A stretch of DNA of 7,424 nt from positions 21,189 through 28,612 of the forward strand of contig MGQK01000046.1 of assembly GCA_001797815.1 (NCBI GenBank). Direction: 5' to 3'. The number at the start of each line of letters is the position of its first letter. Within the stretch, counting starts at the first letter, position 1. The notes under the pieces were generated by a model. It did no database searches, was not told where the DNA came from, and saw only the letters and a program-made list of their open reading frames with translations. A program made the position numbers and the translations under genes. Shown piece by piece: positions 2-7,336 of the stretch. Source of the stretch: Deltaproteobacteria bacterium RBG_13_61_14 (lineage in GTDB: Bacteria; RBG-13-61-14).

Positions 2-556
2 ACTCTTACCGCCCTGCCCCTGCTTTGGCCGGACTTTGCCCTTTCCGCTCCCATCGTGGCCCTGTTGGGCTCGACCTCGGTGCTTCGCCAGGTGCACCAG
101 GTCCTGGGATTGATCTCGGCCTTGCTTCTTCTCGGCTGGCTCTGGAAAGTTTCCCGGGAGATCGTCTCCCTGGCCGCGTTCCGCCGAATGGGACGGATGA
201 TCCTGGCCCTGAAAAGCCCGCGCACGCTCTGGGCGATTACCTCGGTCCCGGCCCCGGGCGAGGAAGACCTGTTTCGGGTTTCCTCCAGCGACCTTTTCAG
301 CTTGCTGATCTTTCCGGCGCTCTTGGTGGCTTTGGCCGGAGGATGGCTCTGGTGGGACCGCGCGTCTCTGGCCTTGCTCCCCAAGTGGGCGCTGGACAGT
401 TTGCTGGCAGCCCACGGCCTCGGCGGACTTCTGGTTTTTATCTGGGTGGTTTTCATCTATGGCGGACTGGTCCTGCTTCGGCCCTGGCTTCTGCGAGAGG
501 CTCGACCGGCTCGGGTCGCTGCTTCGGTCCCGGAGAAAGCCGATGCGCTGGAATAA
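2..556 (+). CDS. Cytochrome b-like integral membrane protein, C-terminal part (5' end outside window)
   Basis: The frame is open from the window edge to the TAA at 554-556, giving 184 codons. A GTG at 56 could serve as a start, but the residues before it (LPLLWPDFALSAP) look like ordinary membrane-protein sequence, so the gene probably begins upstream. About three hydrophobic helices are visible, near in-window residues 32-50, 101-118 and 138-158. Two of them carry a histidine near one end (VHQVLGL, codon 32; AAHGLGG, codon 138), as heme b ligands do in the cytochrome b561/formate dehydrogenase gamma superfamily. Family membership is inferred from this pattern and from the three multiheme cytochrome genes that follow. 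Its expected role is quinol or quinone exchange with periplasmic c-hemes. The last 14 bases overlap the next gene. It could instead be an unrelated membrane anchor. Confidence 0.65.
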   Translation, partial: TLTALPLLWPDFALSAPIVALLGSTSVLRQVHQVLGLISALLLLGWLWKVSREIVSLAAFRRMGRMILALKSPRTLWAITSVPAPGEEDLFRVSSSDLFSLLIFPALLVALAGGWLWWDRASLALLPKWALDSLLAAHGLGGLLVFIWVVFIYGGLVLLRPWLLREARPARVAASVPEKADALE

Positions 557-983
557 GGTCTGGCTTGGGCTCAGCGCCTTGGCCCTGTTGGGGCTTCTCG
601 GCTGCCAGCGGCCGGCTGCGGAAACTCCGCTCCACCCTGGGCCCGGGTGGCTGCTCGATGCGGAGAGCTATTATGCCTCGGCGCACGGCGGCCTGGAATG
701 CACGGAATGTCACCAGGAGATGATGGAAGAGGATGAAGCTTATCCGCACGGGGTGGCGCCTCTGACGCGGGATTATGAATTTGACCAGAAAGCCTGCCAG
801 CGGTGTCACGCCGAGGCCTTTCGGCGGGCCAGCCTGGGGGTCCATGCCCAGGCCGCGGAGCAGGAGCAACGCGCCCGCCAAGGAGGGATGAACCCGGCTT
901 CCTTCTCCCGTTTCGGCGTCTTGGCGCCCCGCTGTCCCGATTGTCATCCGATGCATCAACGGTCGCCCCAAGGAGAGGAATGA
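543..983 (+). CDS. Triheme c-type cytochrome lipoprotein
   Basis: This 146-residue protein has a lipoprotein signal (MRWNKVW, hydrophobic stretch, lipobox LLGC with Cys21). It should be exported, lipidated and membrane-anchored on the periplasmic side or at the outer membrane. Three CxxCH heme c attachment sites lie at residues 53-57 (CTECH), 85-89 (CQRCH) and 131-135 (CPDCH). Extra histidines, including H48 in SAHGG just before the first site, are candidate axial ligands. The ATG at 543 is chosen because a GGAG at 532-535 lies 7 bases upstream and because it places the signal peptide at the N terminus; longer in-frame starts would bury it. The protein resembles the first half of the next gene product (shared W-x-LDAE-x-Y-x-x-S-x-HG pattern). 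Role inferred: short-range electron carrier for the membrane complex encoded around it. Assignment as a heme protein is firm; the redox partner is unknown. Confidence 0.9.
   Translation: MRWNKVWLGLSALALLGLLGCQRPAAETPLHPGPGWLLDAESYYASAHGGLECTECHQEMMEEDEAYPHGVAPLTRDYEFDQKACQRCHAEAFRRASLGVHAQAAEQEQRARQGGMNPASFSRFGVLAPRCPDCHPMHQRSPQGEE
971..978 (+). promoter_or_regulatory. Shine-Dalgarno sequence for the hexaheme lipoprotein gene
   Basis: The purine run AGGAGAGG lies inside the last codons of the triheme gene. It is 4 bases from the ATG at 980 when AGGAG is used, and 7 bases from the ATG at 986 when GAGG is used. This favours 986 as the main start, although 980 overlaps the upstream TGA as ATGA, the usual layout of translational coupling. 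Confidence 0.6.
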
Positions 984-985
984 TC

Positions 986-1624
986 ATGGAAATTGCCTTG
1001 CGACGAAGATGGCGAATCGGCCTGGCCGGGGCGGCGCTCGCGCTGGGCCTGGCTTCGTGTCAGGTCTCCGGTCCCGCGCCTCGGCCCGAGCGGTCCTCAT
1101 GGTTTCTGGACGCCGAACGTTACCGCCATTCCGTTCACGGCCGGGTCTCCTGCCCCCAATGCCACGTGGACCTGGAGACGCCGGGTCTGCGGGTGCTGGA
1201 AGCGCACGGCAGGAAATTGACCCGGCAATACTTTGTCCCGCCCCTGGAAGGATGCAAGAATTGTCACCCTTACGTGTTTGACCAATATCAGGGAGGCTCT
1301 CACGCTGCGGCCCTGACCCAGCTGGCCACGGGTATGCCCCGCTGCCCGGATTGCCATTCCGCCCATTATGGGCAGCGCTTGCAAAATCGTCAGGAAGCGA
1401 CCGCCTTGCAACTCCAAACCTGCGGGTCTTGTCATCCCGAGCAGACCGAAGGCCTAGTCAAGGGCCGCCACCATCCGGAACATGCCTTGGCCGACGGCTT
1501 TACCTGTGGGACCTGCCACGACGTCCATGCGGCCAAGCCTTTGACTTTGGTGATCCGGGACCAGCCGGAGTGCCGGCAATGCCACGCTCCAAATCAGGAA
1601 GGGACAAGCCATGAAGCGCAATAA
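986..1624 (+). CDS. Hexaheme c-type cytochrome lipoprotein
   Basis: From the ATG at 986 this is a 212-residue exported lipoprotein: basic N terminus, hydrophobic segment, lipobox LASC with Cys25. Six CxxCH sites are at residues 56-60, 90-94, 120-124, 146-150, 174-178 and 196-200. Nearby histidines in HG, HA and HH contexts (H51, H74, H106, H127, H162, H163, H166, H181) could supply sixth ligands for bis-His hemes. Heme density is about one per 31 mature residues, typical of small periplasmic electron-wire cytochromes. An in-frame ATG at 980 is the alternative start and adds two residues. The N-terminal half is similar to the preceding triheme protein, so the pair likely arose by duplication. 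It overlaps the following gene by 14 bases. Its likely role is electron transfer between the membrane subunits and a periplasmic or outer-membrane partner; the direction is unknown. Confidence 0.9.
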   Translation: MEIALRRRWRIGLAGAALALGLASCQVSGPAPRPERSSWFLDAERYRHSVHGRVSCPQCHVDLETPGLRVLEAHGRKLTRQYFVPPLEGCKNCHPYVFDQYQGGSHAAALTQLATGMPRCPDCHSAHYGQRLQNRQEATALQLQTCGSCHPEQTEGLVKGRHHPEHALADGFTCGTCHDVHAAKPLTLVIRDQPECRQCHAPNQEGTSHEAQ

Positions 1625-3140
1625 AGGATCATGGTGCCGGATTTTTACCGGCGCGATCATACTCCTCCTGGGGCTCCCCATCAGCCCGGCCTCGACGCGG
1701 GCGCAGGAGCAGTCCAGTCCGCCGGCGGAAGAGGGCGTCCCGGTTTTGCCGGGGCTGGACCTCCAACCCTCAGGCGAAGCCCCGGGCCCGGCTGGACGTC
1801 GGCCTCGCCGCCAGCCGCGGCAAGTACGGCCCAGCCAGCGCCAGCGGCCGACCCCGGCGGGACGGACGCCCAGGATGGAGCGCGGGGCGGGAAAGCTCTG
1901 GATGCGGGAAATGGGCCAGCAAGATTGTTGGGCCTGTCATCGCCTGCCCAACCTAGAGACCGCAACCGGCAACCAGGAGATCATTTTTTCCTGCCTGAAT
2001 TGCCATCGCAACGAGGAAAATTTAGGCAAGGTCAGCGGGAGCAAGGGGTTCGCGCTCCACGTGGACTACAACCATTATCGTTCAAGCACTCACGGGCGGA
2101 TTGCCTGCATTTCCTGCCACGACCAGGTGGCCCGGCTGCCCCACAGCGAGATCGGGCCCCTGGCCTGCGCCTCCTGCCACCGCGGCTTTGCCTGCCCGGT
2201 CGCCGGCGAGGCCCACCCGGGCATGGAGTGCGCCTTATGCCACGTGGAAGGCAACGTCATCAAGGCCAGCGGGTATCAGGACCCCGTCACCGGCCTGTTC
2301 GTGGCCTTTCCCCGGGCCAAGGTGCAGGTGGACGACAACAACCGCGACCGGGAGCATGATTTTACCAACTCCAAGCCCTGTGCCACCTGCCATAGCCTGG
2401 GCAATGCCCTGGGCGCGCCCTTCCCCAGGCTCTTCACCCTGGCACCCTGGCTCGCGGCCGCCTCTCTTCTGGGCCTGCTCGGGCTCTTGCTCCGGATCCA
2501 GCGCTCGCTGCGGCAACTGGCCAAGGACCAAGCCCGCGGCCCCTGGATCACCCTGGTCCGAGGCCTGCGCCGGATCACTCTGGGCCCGGGCGAGCGCGAA
2601 TTCCTGCGCATCGTGGCCGCCGACCTGATCCTTTGCCGGCGCTACTGGCGCGAGAGCGTCGGACGCGGCCTGGCCATGATCCTGTTCACCATCCCCTTCC
2701 TGATCATCCTCACCCTGCAAGCCCTTAAAGCCTGGGCTGCGTCGTTGGGCCTGGCTTCCGGCTGGATCGTGCGCCTGACCCATGACCCTTCTCCCCTGGT
2801 CCTGGACTGGCTGACCGTGCTCACCGGCCTGGCCCTGGCCGGAGTGGTCCTCAGCCTGCTCTTGCCCAAGCGGCCGGACAAGAACCTGACCGCAGCCACT
2901 CCCGGGGATCAGCCCTGGCTGGCCTTATCCATCCTTTTCTTCCTCCTCAGCACCCTCTACTCGCTCACCCATCCCATGCCCGCCTTCCCGCCGCTCCAAA
3001 GTCTGCTGGGGATCGGCTGGTTCCTGGGCAAACTGGGCACACTCATCAGCCTCGCCCTGGTGCCCTGGTCCGCGGATTTCCTGGGCGACTGGGCCGAGCC
3101 GCTGGCCGAGCGCATTGCGCAAGCGGCGGGGGAAAAATGA
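1611..3140 (+). CDS. Hexaheme cytochrome c fused to a five-helix membrane domain
   Basis: This 509-residue protein has a Sec-type signal peptide (residues 1-31, probable cleavage after STRA). A Pro/Arg/Gln-rich low-complexity linker follows (about 33-95). A heme domain comes next, with CxxCH at 106-110, 128-132, 166-170, 186-190, 207-211 and 257-261. Five predicted membrane helices end the protein, near 277-296, 353-372, 398-418, 435-453 and 465-486. The 297-352 loop is rich in Arg/Lys, so by the positive-inside rule it is cytoplasmic and the hemes are periplasmic. The spacing of helices 3 and 4 around a short polar loop (PKRPDKNL to GDQPW) faintly resembles NarI/HdrE/DsrM-type quinone-reactive subunits. 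However, only H391 and H454 are seen in that half, so a diheme b site is doubtful. The start has a purine-rich site at 1596-1604. Inferred role: membrane anchor and electron entry or exit point of the cytochrome complex. It is the last gene of the block. Confidence 0.88.
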   Translation: MKRNKGSWCRIFTGAIILLLGLPISPASTRAQEQSSPPAEEGVPVLPGLDLQPSGEAPGPAGRRPRRQPRQVRPSQRQRPTPAGRTPRMERGAGKLWMREMGQQDCWACHRLPNLETATGNQEIIFSCLNCHRNEENLGKVSGSKGFALHVDYNHYRSSTHGRIACISCHDQVARLPHSEIGPLACASCHRGFACPVAGEAHPGMECALCHVEGNVIKASGYQDPVTGLFVAFPRAKVQVDDNNRDREHDFTNSKPCATCHSLGNALGAPFPRLFTLAPWLAAASLLGLLGLLLRIQRSLRQLAKDQARGPWITLVRGLRRITLGPGEREFLRIVAADLILCRRYWRESVGRGLAMILFTIPFLIILTLQALKAWAASLGLASGWIVRLTHDPSPLVLDWLTVLTGLALAGVVLSLLLPKRPDKNLTAATPGDQPWLALSILFFLLSTLYSLTHPMPAFPPLQSLLGIGWFLGKLGTLISLALVPWSADFLGDWAEPLAERIAQAAGEK

Positions 3141-3228
3141 ACCTCAAAGGGGGAAAAATTATAAACCTAAGAGAGGAGCGGTAAGCCAATCACTTGCCGG
3201 CCTTCATTGCAGGAGCAATTCAGAATTT

Positions 3229-3350
3229 AACACGAAGGCACAAAGACACTAAAAGAAAAAATTTACCTCTCCTTCTTGGCCATGCGCCAAGCTGGTCGGT
3301 GGGGGATTAAGCCTGCCGCCTCACCCTTTGTGTCTTTGTGCCTTCGTGTT
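3229..3350. repeat. Inverted-repeat element in the convergent intergenic region
   Basis: The arms at 3229-3249 and 3330-3350 are perfect 21-bp reverse complements (core CACGAAGGCACAAAGACAC) separated by 80 bp. They lie in the 234-bp gap between the convergent stop codons at 3140 and 3375. The interior is AT-rich on the left and has no coding potential that I can see. Repeats built on 'cacgaaggcacaaagacac' are, to my knowledge, scattered between genes in many bacterial genomes. This could be a non-autonomous mobile element, or it could act as an RNA hairpin between the two transcripts. Confidence 0.7.
3275..3291 (-). terminator. Small hairpin, possible weak terminator of the minus-strand operon
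   Basis: CTTGGC and GCCAAG form a 6-bp stem with a 5-base loop. Read on the minus strand, a TTTTTT run follows about 13 bases after the stem. That is farther than in a standard intrinsic terminator, so the call is weak. No better terminator is visible for either transcript. Confidence 0.25.
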
Positions 3351-3374
3351 TAATAAAACTTTCTCTCAACGGCA

Positions 3375-4586: not shown

Positions 4587-5717
4587 TCAATCCAGCCGGC
4601 CGGCAATCAGGTCCGCAAGAGGGATGACTTCGAGCCTTTTCCCGCCGGCCCGGGAAAGCGAGTCCTGACAGTAAGGACAAGCCGTCACCAGTGCCTGGAC
4701 CCCGGTCGCCCGCGCCTCTTGGATCCGCTCGCGCGAGGCGAAGCGCCAAAGCTCAGGCGCGACCTCCAAGGCAAAACTCCCGCCGCCGCAGCAGTAAGCC
4801 GACTCGCCCGACCGCTCAATCTCCCGAAGCTCAAGGCCAGGGACTTGCTCCAGCACCTGGCGCAGGACTTCGCCCCGCTCGAGATAGCGGGTCAGGTGGC
4901 AGGGGTCGTGCAGGGAGACCGAGAGCTCAGGTCCGGTTTCAGCCAGGCCGATCCTGCCCTCTTCCAGCAACTCCGCGATCCATTCGCTCAAGTGGATGAC
5001 CTCCGGCTTGAGCTCGCCGGCTTCCAGGTAGTCGTTGACCAGGGTGGAAGTGCAGTGCGGGCAGAGCGTGATGATCCGCTCGGCTCCGGCCGCGTTCAGC
5101 CGTGCGATGGTCTTTTCTGCCAGGCGGATAAAAAGCTCCGGGTCGCCCAGCTCCAGAGCCGGGTTGCCGCAGCAAGGCTCGTCCTCCAAAACCGAAACCT
5201 TCGCCCCGGCCCGGTGCACGATTTTCAGCACCCCATCCAAAGCACTCTGGCTCAGCTTGAACCGGCACCCTAAAAAGAGCAAAGCTTCTACCTCGTTCGA
5301 TTCCGCCGCCAATGTTAAGTTCGGGGCCTGACCCCATGTTAAGTTCCCCTTGGTGCGAAGGTTTTCCAGAAGCCGGTGATGGGCGGCGTTGGCATAGACC
5401 CCGTGGCTCACCAGCCAGGCGCGCAGGTCGCGGATAAAATGAATGGTCTCGAACCCGGGCGGGCACATGGTGGCACAGGCATGGCAGAGCGTGCAGTGCA
5501 TGGCGACCTTTGCCGCCTCCAGCGTGGGCGCGACCTTGCCCTCGAGCACGCCTTGGGCCGTGTAGCCCTTGCCCCCGCCGGAATAGGCGAAGAAGCCCAG
5601 GTGATCAAACGAGGGGCAGACCGGGAGCTCGGGCCGGTCGCGGACCGTGGTGCAGGCCCGGCAGCGGTTGCAGGTGTAGAGGTAAGTGGCGTAGTCGGCG
5701 TCGCGGCTGAGCGGCAT
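4587..5717 (-). CDS. Fe-S oxidoreductase with two CCG domains (GlcF/HdrD type)
   Basis: This 376-residue cytoplasmic or membrane-associated electron-transfer subunit has two [4Fe-4S] motifs at the N terminus: C16-x2-C19-x2-C22 with C34, and C75-x2-C78-x2-C81-x3-C85. Two cysteine-rich domains follow. The first runs C151, C182-C183-G, C219-x2-C222; the second runs C273 (HDPCH), C309-C310-G, C347-x2-C350. This matches the glycolate oxidase GlcF, heterodisulfide reductase HdrD and LutA class. In such proteins the clusters carry electrons from a flavoprotein to quinone, heme or thiol acceptors. The neighbouring FAD-linked oxidase gene is the expected partner. The ATG at 5717 has AAAGGAGG at 5728-5735, 10 bases upstream. 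Residues about 124-136 (GNLTWGQAPNLTL) are encoded by a REP-like repeat inserted in frame in the linker before the first CCG domain. All cluster-binding cysteines remain, so the protein may still work. Confidence 0.92.
   Translation of the reverse strand: MPLSRDADYATYLYTCNRCRACTTVRDRPELPVCPSFDHLGFFAYSGGGKGYTAQGVLEGKVAPTLEAAKVAMHCTLCHACATMCPPGFETIHFIRDLRAWLVSHGVYANAAHHRLLENLRTKGNLTWGQAPNLTLAAESNEVEALLFLGCRFKLSQSALDGVLKIVHRAGAKVSVLEDEPCCGNPALELGDPELFIRLAEKTIARLNAAGAERIITLCPHCTSTLVNDYLEAGELKPEVIHLSEWIAELLEEGRIGLAETGPELSVSLHDPCHLTRYLERGEVLRQVLEQVPGLELREIERSGESAYCCGGGSFALEVAPELWRFASRERIQEARATGVQALVTACPYCQDSLSRAGGKRLEVIPLADLIAGRLD
5312..5350. repeat. REP-like element inside the Fe-S oxidoreductase gene
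   Basis: An 11-bp direct repeat ATGTTAAGTTC at 5312-5322 and 5336-5346 flanks a 13-bp core GGGGCCTGACCCC (5323-5335), followed by CCC. Read on the minus strand the core is GGGGTCAGGCCCC, sharing GGGGTCAG with the intergenic element at 5735-5806. The translated piece, about 13 residues, keeps the frame and lies between the ferredoxin-like part and the first CCG domain. From memory, repeats of this form are dispersed in many genomes and are associated with REP-type (RAYT) transposition; no transposase gene is present here. Confidence 0.75.
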
Positions 5718-5727
5718 CGTTAAAAAC

Positions 5728-5735
5728 CCTCCTTT
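5728..5735 (-). promoter_or_regulatory. Strong Shine-Dalgarno sequence directly beside the REP element
   Basis: AAAGGAGG on the minus strand, 10 bases before the ATG at 5717, fixes the start of the Fe-S oxidoreductase. Its outermost base is also the first base of the 5735-5806 repeat, so that element ends exactly at the ribosome-binding site. Confidence 0.75.
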
Positions 5736-5806
5736 GGGGTCAGGTCTTCACATTTCACATTCCCCTTATGCAGAATAGTAAAGTTTCAAGTGAAGCTCTG
5801 ACCCCA
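5735..5806. repeat. REP-like inverted-repeat element between the oxidase and Fe-S genes
   Basis: The ends are an imperfect 18-bp inverted repeat: TGGGGTCAGGTCTTCACA at 5735-5752 and the reverse complement of TGGGGTCAGAGCTTCACT at 5789-5806, differing at three positions. The element is about 72 bp and takes up most of the 95-bp gap, starting 6 bases after the oxidase stop codon. It could fold into a long hairpin in the shared mRNA, which in other operons can protect the upstream message. It carries no gene. Confidence 0.75.
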
Positions 5807-5812
5807 TTAAAC

Positions 5813-7336
5813 TTAGAACCTTCCATACATGGAGAGGCTCATGCCCGGGTTGAGGATGTTCTCCGGGTCGAGCGCGCGCTTGATGGCCTTGAGCACCTGC
5901 GCCTGCCCGCCGGTCTTGTTCAGCACCGCGCCGGGCGGGTGGCCGTAATCGTAGCGGACCGGGATCGCGCCGTAGCGGCGGAAGGCCTGCTCCAGGTATT
6001 TCTGGCGGGTGGCGGCGGCCCGCTCGATTTCTTTGGGGGAAGACTCGGGCGAGACAAAGGTGGTCATGCGCAGGAACACGGACCGGCACTGGTCCAGGCT
6101 GTGGCTGTAATAGGAGAGCGCGAGCCGGAGCGGCGACTTGCGGAGAAAGCGCAGGCCCCACTGTTCCAGGCCGGCCACCCGGTTGGGGTCGGCAATGACC
6201 ATGGGCATGAGCGGGAAGCCCTCGCCGAACCCGCCCATGAACTGGTTGGTGGGCTGGTGGTCGCGGTAGTGGTCGGCAAAGAACTTCCAGGCGCCGGGCC
6301 ATTTCTCCCGGCATTCCTCGGTGTAAATCCTGCCGCCTAATTCTTCGGTGATGCGCTTGGCCGCCTGCTCGCCGGCCGCGATCACCTCGCGGTAACCGGA
6401 CATGCTCGGCACCACCAGGATGTAAGGCCGCTCGTCCGGCTTGGTCCAGGGGTCGTAGAGCAGGATCTCGGCCGGCGCGCCCCGGCCGTAGCGGCCGAGG
6501 TGGTCAATGATGGTGTAGAGCGGCCAGTGCCAGGCGCAGATGTGCTGGACCAGGTTGGCGCGGGAGAGCCGCTTCATGTATTCCAGGGCCTGGGCATAGC
6601 TCTCAAAGGCGGAGACCGGCAGGGTCTGGGCCTCGTTCATCTGATAGACCCGCACCGCGCCCTTGGTCACCACCCCCAGCGTGCCGCCGGCATCCAGGAA
6701 AAGGTTCTTGACGTTGGGGAAGGTATTGGAAGGATAGTGCCAGCCCAGGGCGGGATAGGTGTGGCCAAAGGCCTTGGACCCGGTCTGGAACACCGTGCCG
6801 TCGGCCAGCACCACCTCCAAGCCGAGGACGTCGTCCATGATGCCGCTGGAGCGGTGGCTGTTGGCCGCAGTCATCAGGTAGTTGCCCAGGACCGAGATCC
6901 CGGGCGGGAACGAGCCCATGGCCAGGCGCAGGTTCTCTTTCTGCAAGGCTTTTGCCAGTTGGCCGATGCTCACCCCGATCTCCACCACCGCGTAAGCGCC
7001 GCCGACGTTGATCTCCAGGATCCGGTTGAGCGCCAGGGTATCGAGCACGATGCCGCCGAACCAGGGATAGGTGGACGGCTCCTGGGTGCCGCTGGCCACG
7101 GGGGTGACCGGAATCCGGCGCTTACGGGCCAGGAGCAAAACCTTTTGGATGTCCGCCACGTTCCTCGGCCTGACCACGAAATCCGGCATGGCCTTGGGCA
7201 GGACCATGCTGGTGCCGGAATAGCCGTAGCGGATGGCCGGATTGGCCGTGGCCCGTTCAGACCCCACGATCCGCTGCAGCGCCCGCAAGACCCGGGATCG
7301 CTCCGCCTCGGAAAACTTGATTCGCTTGCTAATCAT
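5813..7336 (-). CDS. FAD-linked oxidase/dehydrogenase (PCMH/VAO type)
   Basis: This 507-residue flavoprotein has an N-terminal FAD-binding PCMH domain at about residues 47-228. Its signs are PDFVVRPRNVADIQ (51-64), the SGTQEP turn (82-87), GGIVLDTLALNRI (94-106), VVEIGVSIGQL (117-127), the GNYLMTAANSHRSSG segment (151-165), DDVLGLEVVLADG (168-180) and GGTLGVVTKGAV (217-228). The substrate-binding half ends in DYGHPPG and the family's typical DPENILNPG close to the C terminus. Relatives (GlcD, D-lactate dehydrogenases, 4-cresol dehydrogenase/vanillyl-alcohol oxidase types) oxidise hydroxy acids, alcohols or phenols with FAD; which substrate is used here cannot be told. The Fe-S gene 95 bases downstream is the likely electron acceptor subunit. 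The ATG at 7336 is chosen because GGGGGAGG lies 2 bases upstream (a short spacing) and because the longer frame from 7420 would translate a palindromic repeat. Confidence 0.9.
   Translation of the reverse strand: MISKRIKFSEAERSRVLRALQRIVGSERATANPAIRYGYSGTSMVLPKAMPDFVVRPRNVADIQKVLLLARKRRIPVTPVASGTQEPSTYPWFGGIVLDTLALNRILEINVGGAYAVVEIGVSIGQLAKALQKENLRLAMGSFPPGISVLGNYLMTAANSHRSSGIMDDVLGLEVVLADGTVFQTGSKAFGHTYPALGWHYPSNTFPNVKNLFLDAGGTLGVVTKGAVRVYQMNEAQTLPVSAFESYAQALEYMKRLSRANLVQHICAWHWPLYTIIDHLGRYGRGAPAEILLYDPWTKPDERPYILVVPSMSGYREVIAAGEQAAKRITEELGGRIYTEECREKWPGAWKFFADHYRDHQPTNQFMGGFGEGFPLMPMVIADPNRVAGLEQWGLRFLRKSPLRLALSYYSHSLDQCRSVFLRMTTFVSPESSPKEIERAAATRQKYLEQAFRRYGAIPVRYDYGHPPGAVLNKTGGQAQVLKAIKRALDPENILNPGMSLSMYGRF

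Follow-up and report, generated by a model that had tools for sequence, protein, structure and literature searches.

How much energy extracellular respiration yields, and at what redox potential, is set by inner-membrane quinone/multiheme modules. In Geobacter sulfurreducens, the quinone oxidoreductase CbcL joins a diheme b domain to nine c-hemes (PMC9129911). Homologues of CbcL, MtoC and MtrH carry 3–23 hemes and are distributed over 15 phyla, and those of CbcL and MtoC are known from Fe(III) reducers as well as Fe(II) oxidizers (PMC6295460). The Cbc5 system pairs a 7-heme CbcA with a b-type CbcB (PMC10989804).

Here we describe a four-gene locus (A–D) of this general kind. The window, by which we mean the whole stretch of 7,424 nucleotides that was analysed, spans bases 21189–28612 of contig 46 in a genome of 4.7 Mb that is 95% complete.

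Overall organization of the locus

The four open reading frames all lie on the plus strand with overlapping ends (Table 1): A and B share 14 bp, B and C 4 bp (ATGA), and C and D 14 bp. The initial annotation had described four genes with overlapping ends and, among them, a 3-heme lipoprotein, a 6-heme lipoprotein and a 6-heme/membrane fusion; the frames, the CXXCH counts, the lipoboxes (LLGC in B, LASC in C) and the five helices of D agree with it. In-frame CXXCH motifs number three in B, six in C and six in D (15 in sum), against a mean of 0.08 and a maximum of 2 over 5,000 residue shuffles of B, C and D. The 15 c-heme sites counted originally are thus exact for these three genes but a minimum for the cluster, because the upstream part of A brings two more CXXCH motifs and a terminal Cys; once that part is counted, the cluster has at least 17.

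Genes near the cluster encode a glycyl radical enzyme-like protein, an FAD/Fe-S oxidoreductase and a methylmalonyl-CoA epimerase. Convergent with the cytochrome genes (window 4587–7333, minus strand), a GlcD-like FAD protein is encoded beside an Fe-S protein that contains two CCG domains; this pair is probably a membrane-linked hydroxy-acid dehydrogenase. An inverted repeat of 28 bases (window 3225–3252 and 3327–3354; 93% complementary, 74-base spacer) sits in the interval between D and the methylmalonyl-CoA epimerase gene, which is convergent with it, and resembles a dispersed palindromic element. At window 5309–5346, near-identical 14-base repeats, CCAATGTTAAGTTC and CCCATGTTAAGTTC, stand on both sides of a GGGGCCTGACCCC-like palindrome and fall within the reading frame that encodes the Fe-S protein, as though a repeat element had inserted in frame. 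A REP-associated tyrosine transposase-like gene is located at L003:16213–16878.

Table 1 Coordinates of the cytochrome genes and of a candidate conduit elsewhere in the genome (window positions unless a locus is given)
Feature	Location	Strand	Details
Gene A, 5' part	L002:12822–13110		Upstream of 79-N gap, outside window; signal peptide, CGECH, CLTCH, Cys at gap edge
Gene A, 3' part: b561/FdnI-like membrane domain	2–556	+	5' end absent from window
Gene B: 3-heme lipoprotein, C paralogue	543–983	+	Lipobox Cys 603–605; CXXCH at 699, 795, 933
Gene C: 6-heme lipoprotein	980–1624	+	Lipobox Cys 1058–1060; CXXCH at 1151, 1253, 1343, 1421, 1505, 1571
Gene D: signal peptide, 6 CXXCH, five-helix membrane domain	1611–3140	+	CXXCH at 1926, 1992, 2106, 2166, 2229, 2379
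Gene D membrane domain: five helices	2424–3140	+	Arginine-rich first loop; no His in predicted helix cores
Candidate porin–cytochrome conduit	L096:4150–8653	-	456-aa protein, 13-heme lipoprotein-like protein, large multiheme protein with assembly gaps

Gene A at an assembly gap

The first base of the window is the first base past a 79-N scaffold gap and lies inside A. Extension upstream, as the initial annotation had advised, recovered the 5' part of A, a sigma-70-like promoter just upstream of it and a preceding thiamine phosphate synthase gene, although the gap itself interrupts A. The two parts of A are in the same frame, given the estimated gap length, and the N-terminal part matches 11-heme Cbc-like proteins (E ~1e-10). 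The description of the first gene as b-type-like holds for its membrane domain but, because the upstream part carries CXXCH motifs, A would not be a plain b-type protein.

As judged from its sequence, A would be a c-heme/b561-like protein or, with a gap above the estimated length, two genes; its heme count, first membrane helix and single-gene status all hang on the sequence inside the gap. The rest of a CXXCH, a linker and TM1 would hardly fit into the estimated 79 bases, and the actual gap may therefore be longer. This tightness favours a division into a multiheme CbcA-like gene before the gap and a CbcB-like b561 gene after it, as does the finding that the nearest homologues of the A membrane domain are stand-alone b561 proteins (~228 aa) beside separate multiheme proteins. 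The preserved frame and the frequency of heme–b561 fusions in related clusters speak for one gene instead, and we regard the division as a plausible if somewhat doubtful alternative. It concerns anatomy only and is compatible with the function that we favour below.

The membrane domain of A and a replaced histidine

The window covers helices TM2–TM4 of A and the end of TM1. Pfam scans of this membrane domain gave zero matches. Its homology to FdnI-type b561 is nevertheless established by comparison with other proteins, at ~20% identity to related b561 domains: BLAST matched it to stand-alone b561 proteins adjoining multiheme genes (E 6e-8), an independent b561 profile from which A had been left out matched it with a probability of 96% (E 1.3e-9; reversed-sequence control, E 0.37), and a b561 profile including A matched Escherichia coli FdnI (1kqf_C) with an E value of 1.6e-14. 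A structure prediction for the domain with six relatives was uninformative (pLDDT 57; no PDB match by Foldseek).

The TM2 His (window 95–97) and the first TM4 His (413–415) of A align with the periplasmic heme b pair of FdnI. By contrast, the second TM4 His, kept in FdnI and in the canonical homologues, is replaced by Tyr in A (458–460); the TM1 ligand position falls in the assembly gap. Ligands were assigned to hemes in A from those of FdnI, in which His57 and His155, which match the His pair kept in A, are the ligands of the periplasmic heme b, and His169, which matches the Tyr, is a ligand of the heme b that lies towards the cytoplasm, close to the quinone site. On this alignment A probably holds the periplasmic-side heme b only. 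The lost b-heme ligand, a single residue in a single genome, would suggest that electrons do not cross the full width of the membrane through A.

The heme lipoproteins B and C

In both lipoproteins the lipobox Cys is followed by Gln, which under the E. coli rule would direct B and C to the outer membrane. C starts at the ATG at 980, which overlaps the stop of B, or at 986. B is, by its similarity to C (E 2e-12), a shortened paralogue related to it by duplication, and it also matches D (E 2e-4). C in turn matches 11-heme Cbc-like proteins (E 1e-14).

D carries hemes on an unfamiliar five-helix domain

D is composed of a signal peptide, hemes at residues 106–261 and then five hydrophobic helices. 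This heme part lines up with the hemes at the N terminus of Cbc-like proteins (E ~1e-10). The first loop of the membrane domain contains 13 K/R, which predicts a cytoplasmic loop and periplasmic hemes. The membrane region has two His residues, His391 and His454, both at predicted periplasmic edges.

Searches with the D membrane domain returned weak partial matches only, both in 386 genomes across the domain (best E 1e-3) and in 195 genomes of another phylum (best E 7e-4), and no relative in the genomes of its own phylum, Pfam or PHROGs; the total of ~590 genomes held no clear relative, and no quinone enzyme was matched. A DNA pattern scan of 85,000 species, which detects close relatives only, found none for D. 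The profile searches that the initial annotation had recommended placed the membrane domain of A with b561/FdnI and left that of D with no clear relative. Single-sequence AlphaFold modelling of D gave a pLDDT of 46, and a fold search gave chance matches only.

The layout of D and a motif seen by eye had suggested a relative of NarI/DsrM. Against a profile from 13 PF02665-type proteins, hhalign gave an E value of 0.031, compared with 0.036 to 0.7 for four shuffled controls, and there was no Pfam match. We do not claim the kinship, since this E value is no better than that of one of the four shuffles.

Related clusters in this and other genomes

Canonical Cbc-like clusters contain multiheme proteins that match A, C and D over their heme domains, both in other genomes and in the same genome, which has such a cluster on contig C92 (L096:9000–15900). 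With the b561/FdnI-like domain of A, these matches make the likeness to Cbc clusters, proposed from the outset, right in kind. Canonical clusters contain 7–11-heme proteins, a 228-aa b561, 9-heme proteins, a second b561 and a 16–18-heme protein. Such c-heme and b561 clusters recur in Deltaproteobacteria, Schekmanbacteria, Acidobacteriota MAGs (Thermoanaerobaculaceae in part) and many more genomes. A scan with a second alignment of A gave four named loci, all of them canonical-type clusters and none with D.

Besides these heme domains, the b561 domain of A also has matches among the proteins of the C92 cluster. That cluster differs in its two stand-alone b561 proteins, which keep all four His where A is without one, in its 6-, 9- and 16-heme proteins, in a possible porin and a 13-heme protein nearby, and in having no D-type protein. 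The 456-aa protein near it, without a Pfam match, may be a porin or other beta-barrel. The distinct complex and electron conduit that the initial annotation had suggested stay hypothetical: the A-B-C-D order, whose recurrence it had proposed as a check, did not turn up in any other genome searched, two more genomes of its phylum among them, and the candidate trans-envelope conduit (the possible porin and the 13-heme protein) is on another contig.

Several other proteins were also observed. The C92 cluster is headed by a fusion protein in which a receiver domain (E 1e-28) is joined to a b561-like membrane domain of reduced length (L096:9013–9915, plus strand). A 1016-aa protein (L098:6740–9790, minus strand) combines a bc/b6f-type cytochrome b (Pfam E 3e-46) with a tail of 8 c-hemes, and an octaheme protein (L097:5998–7872, minus strand) has a weak likeness to the hydrazine dehydrogenase/hydroxylamine oxidoreductase type (NCBIfam E 6e-16, far under the curated cut-off). 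Near the Cbc-like clusters of two genomes, proteins of ~600 aa (L053:5200–7002 and L110:183–1997, both minus strand) have a response-regulator receiver domain (Pfam E 4e-15 and 2e-18) in one chain with 11 c-hemes, a membrane helix and a region resembling NapC/NirT; they may act as redox sensors or as quinol dehydrogenases under phospho-control.

Proposed function

We read A–D as a single operon for a divergent inner-membrane module of the Cbc-like type, through which the quinone pool and the c-type cytochromes of the periplasm would exchange electrons, and give this explanation as a whole a probability of roughly 0.6. A would join its b561-like domain, probably with the periplasmic-side heme b only, to its own c-hemes. 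B and C would serve as lipoprotein relays that extend the heme chain away from the membrane, and D would be a five-helix anchor, devoid of b-heme ligands, that bears six further hemes of the same scaffold. Electrons would pass from quinol to A, then to B/C (and D) and on to periplasmic carriers, quinol oxidation being the most likely direction. We infer that the four proteins form a complex, that it performs quinone chemistry and that it hands over to the porin–cytochrome genes of C92. The same-direction, overlapping genes behind a promoter-like site support the module; against it count the lost ligand of A, whose FdnI counterpart sits by the quinone site, the absence of quinone enzymes among the matches of the D membrane domain, the assembly gap in the middle of A and the recovery of the set from one genome only.

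The loss of the TM4 His, the presumed ligand of the cytoplasmic heme b, would also fit a module without a quinone role. In such a module B, C and D would make up a heme relay or store in the periplasm, tethered to the membrane, and A would be the remnant of a b561 retained as an anchor. The absence of His from the membrane helices of D and the canonical cluster already present in the genome point the same way. However, A retains exactly the His pair expected to bind the periplasmic heme b, the overlapping genes are all intact, and every heme motif is complete; we consider such a module unlikely. Also improbable, in our estimate, is a quinone:cytochrome c module of four subunits whose b subunit has only the periplasmic-side heme b, so that the usual cytoplasmic-side quinone site would be unusable, and in which the membrane domain of D, as a new family, may supply a quinone site instead. 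On the one genome at hand, a distinct complex is possible.

The direction proposed for the Cbc-like module could also be reversed, electrons from outside or from a partner entering the periplasm and reducing quinones, as has been proposed for MtoC and for CbcBA of syntrophic sulfate reducers. The sequence leaves the direction unfixed, homologues of CbcL/MtoC occur in Fe(III) reducers and Fe(II) oxidizers alike (PMC6295460), and CbcBA has been proposed to run backwards in Seep-SRB2 (PMC10553843). The neighbouring genes look heterotrophic (glycyl radical enzyme-like, FAD/Fe-S oxidoreductase, methylmalonyl-CoA epimerase), which is weak evidence against reverse flow, an option that we hold to be improbable.

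A version without one b-heme would test whether trans-membrane electron transfer, and hence energy conservation at this step, is needed. With this locus, a sparsely sampled bacterial phylum (three genomes) joins those with Cbc-like genes. The weight of the finding is modest because one genome and one assembly gap stand behind it.

Comparison with known systems

Like the CbcL/MtoC/MtrH family, A has a b561/FdnI-type membrane domain and would carry c-hemes on its N-terminal side, and multiheme c proteins are encoded alongside. That family is recognized by at least three CX2CH motifs and a b-type membrane domain in one polypeptide; A has two CXXCH motifs and a Cys at the gap edge, with b561 in frame across the assembly gap. 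It departs from the diheme-b arrangement of the family in the Tyr at the second TM4 His, the available sequence keeping a single b-heme ligand pair where two are expected, and in its association with two heme lipoproteins and D.

As in Cbc5/CbcBA of Geobacter (with the 11-heme CbcC), a b-type membrane protein adjoins multiheme c proteins. Compared with Cbc5 as described rather than with Geobacter sequences, the A–D cluster is without a monoheme CbcD or a heme-free membrane CbcE: where CbcEDCBA comprises 7-heme CbcA, CbcB, 11-heme CbcC, monoheme CbcD and CbcE, the four genes here encode a heme/b561 protein with two or more hemes, a 3-heme protein, a 6-heme protein and a 6-heme/five-helix protein. 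The heme chain is divided among A, B, C and D, and the D membrane domain resembles nothing found. With NarI/DsrM/HdrE, D shares a five-helix layout and a long cytoplasmic first loop; it differs in having no His inside the helices, where NarI/DsrM have their b-heme ligands, and homology is without statistical support. The loss of a b-heme ligand in A and a membrane domain in D without a recognizable relative appear to make this an unusual form of the Cbc kind of module.
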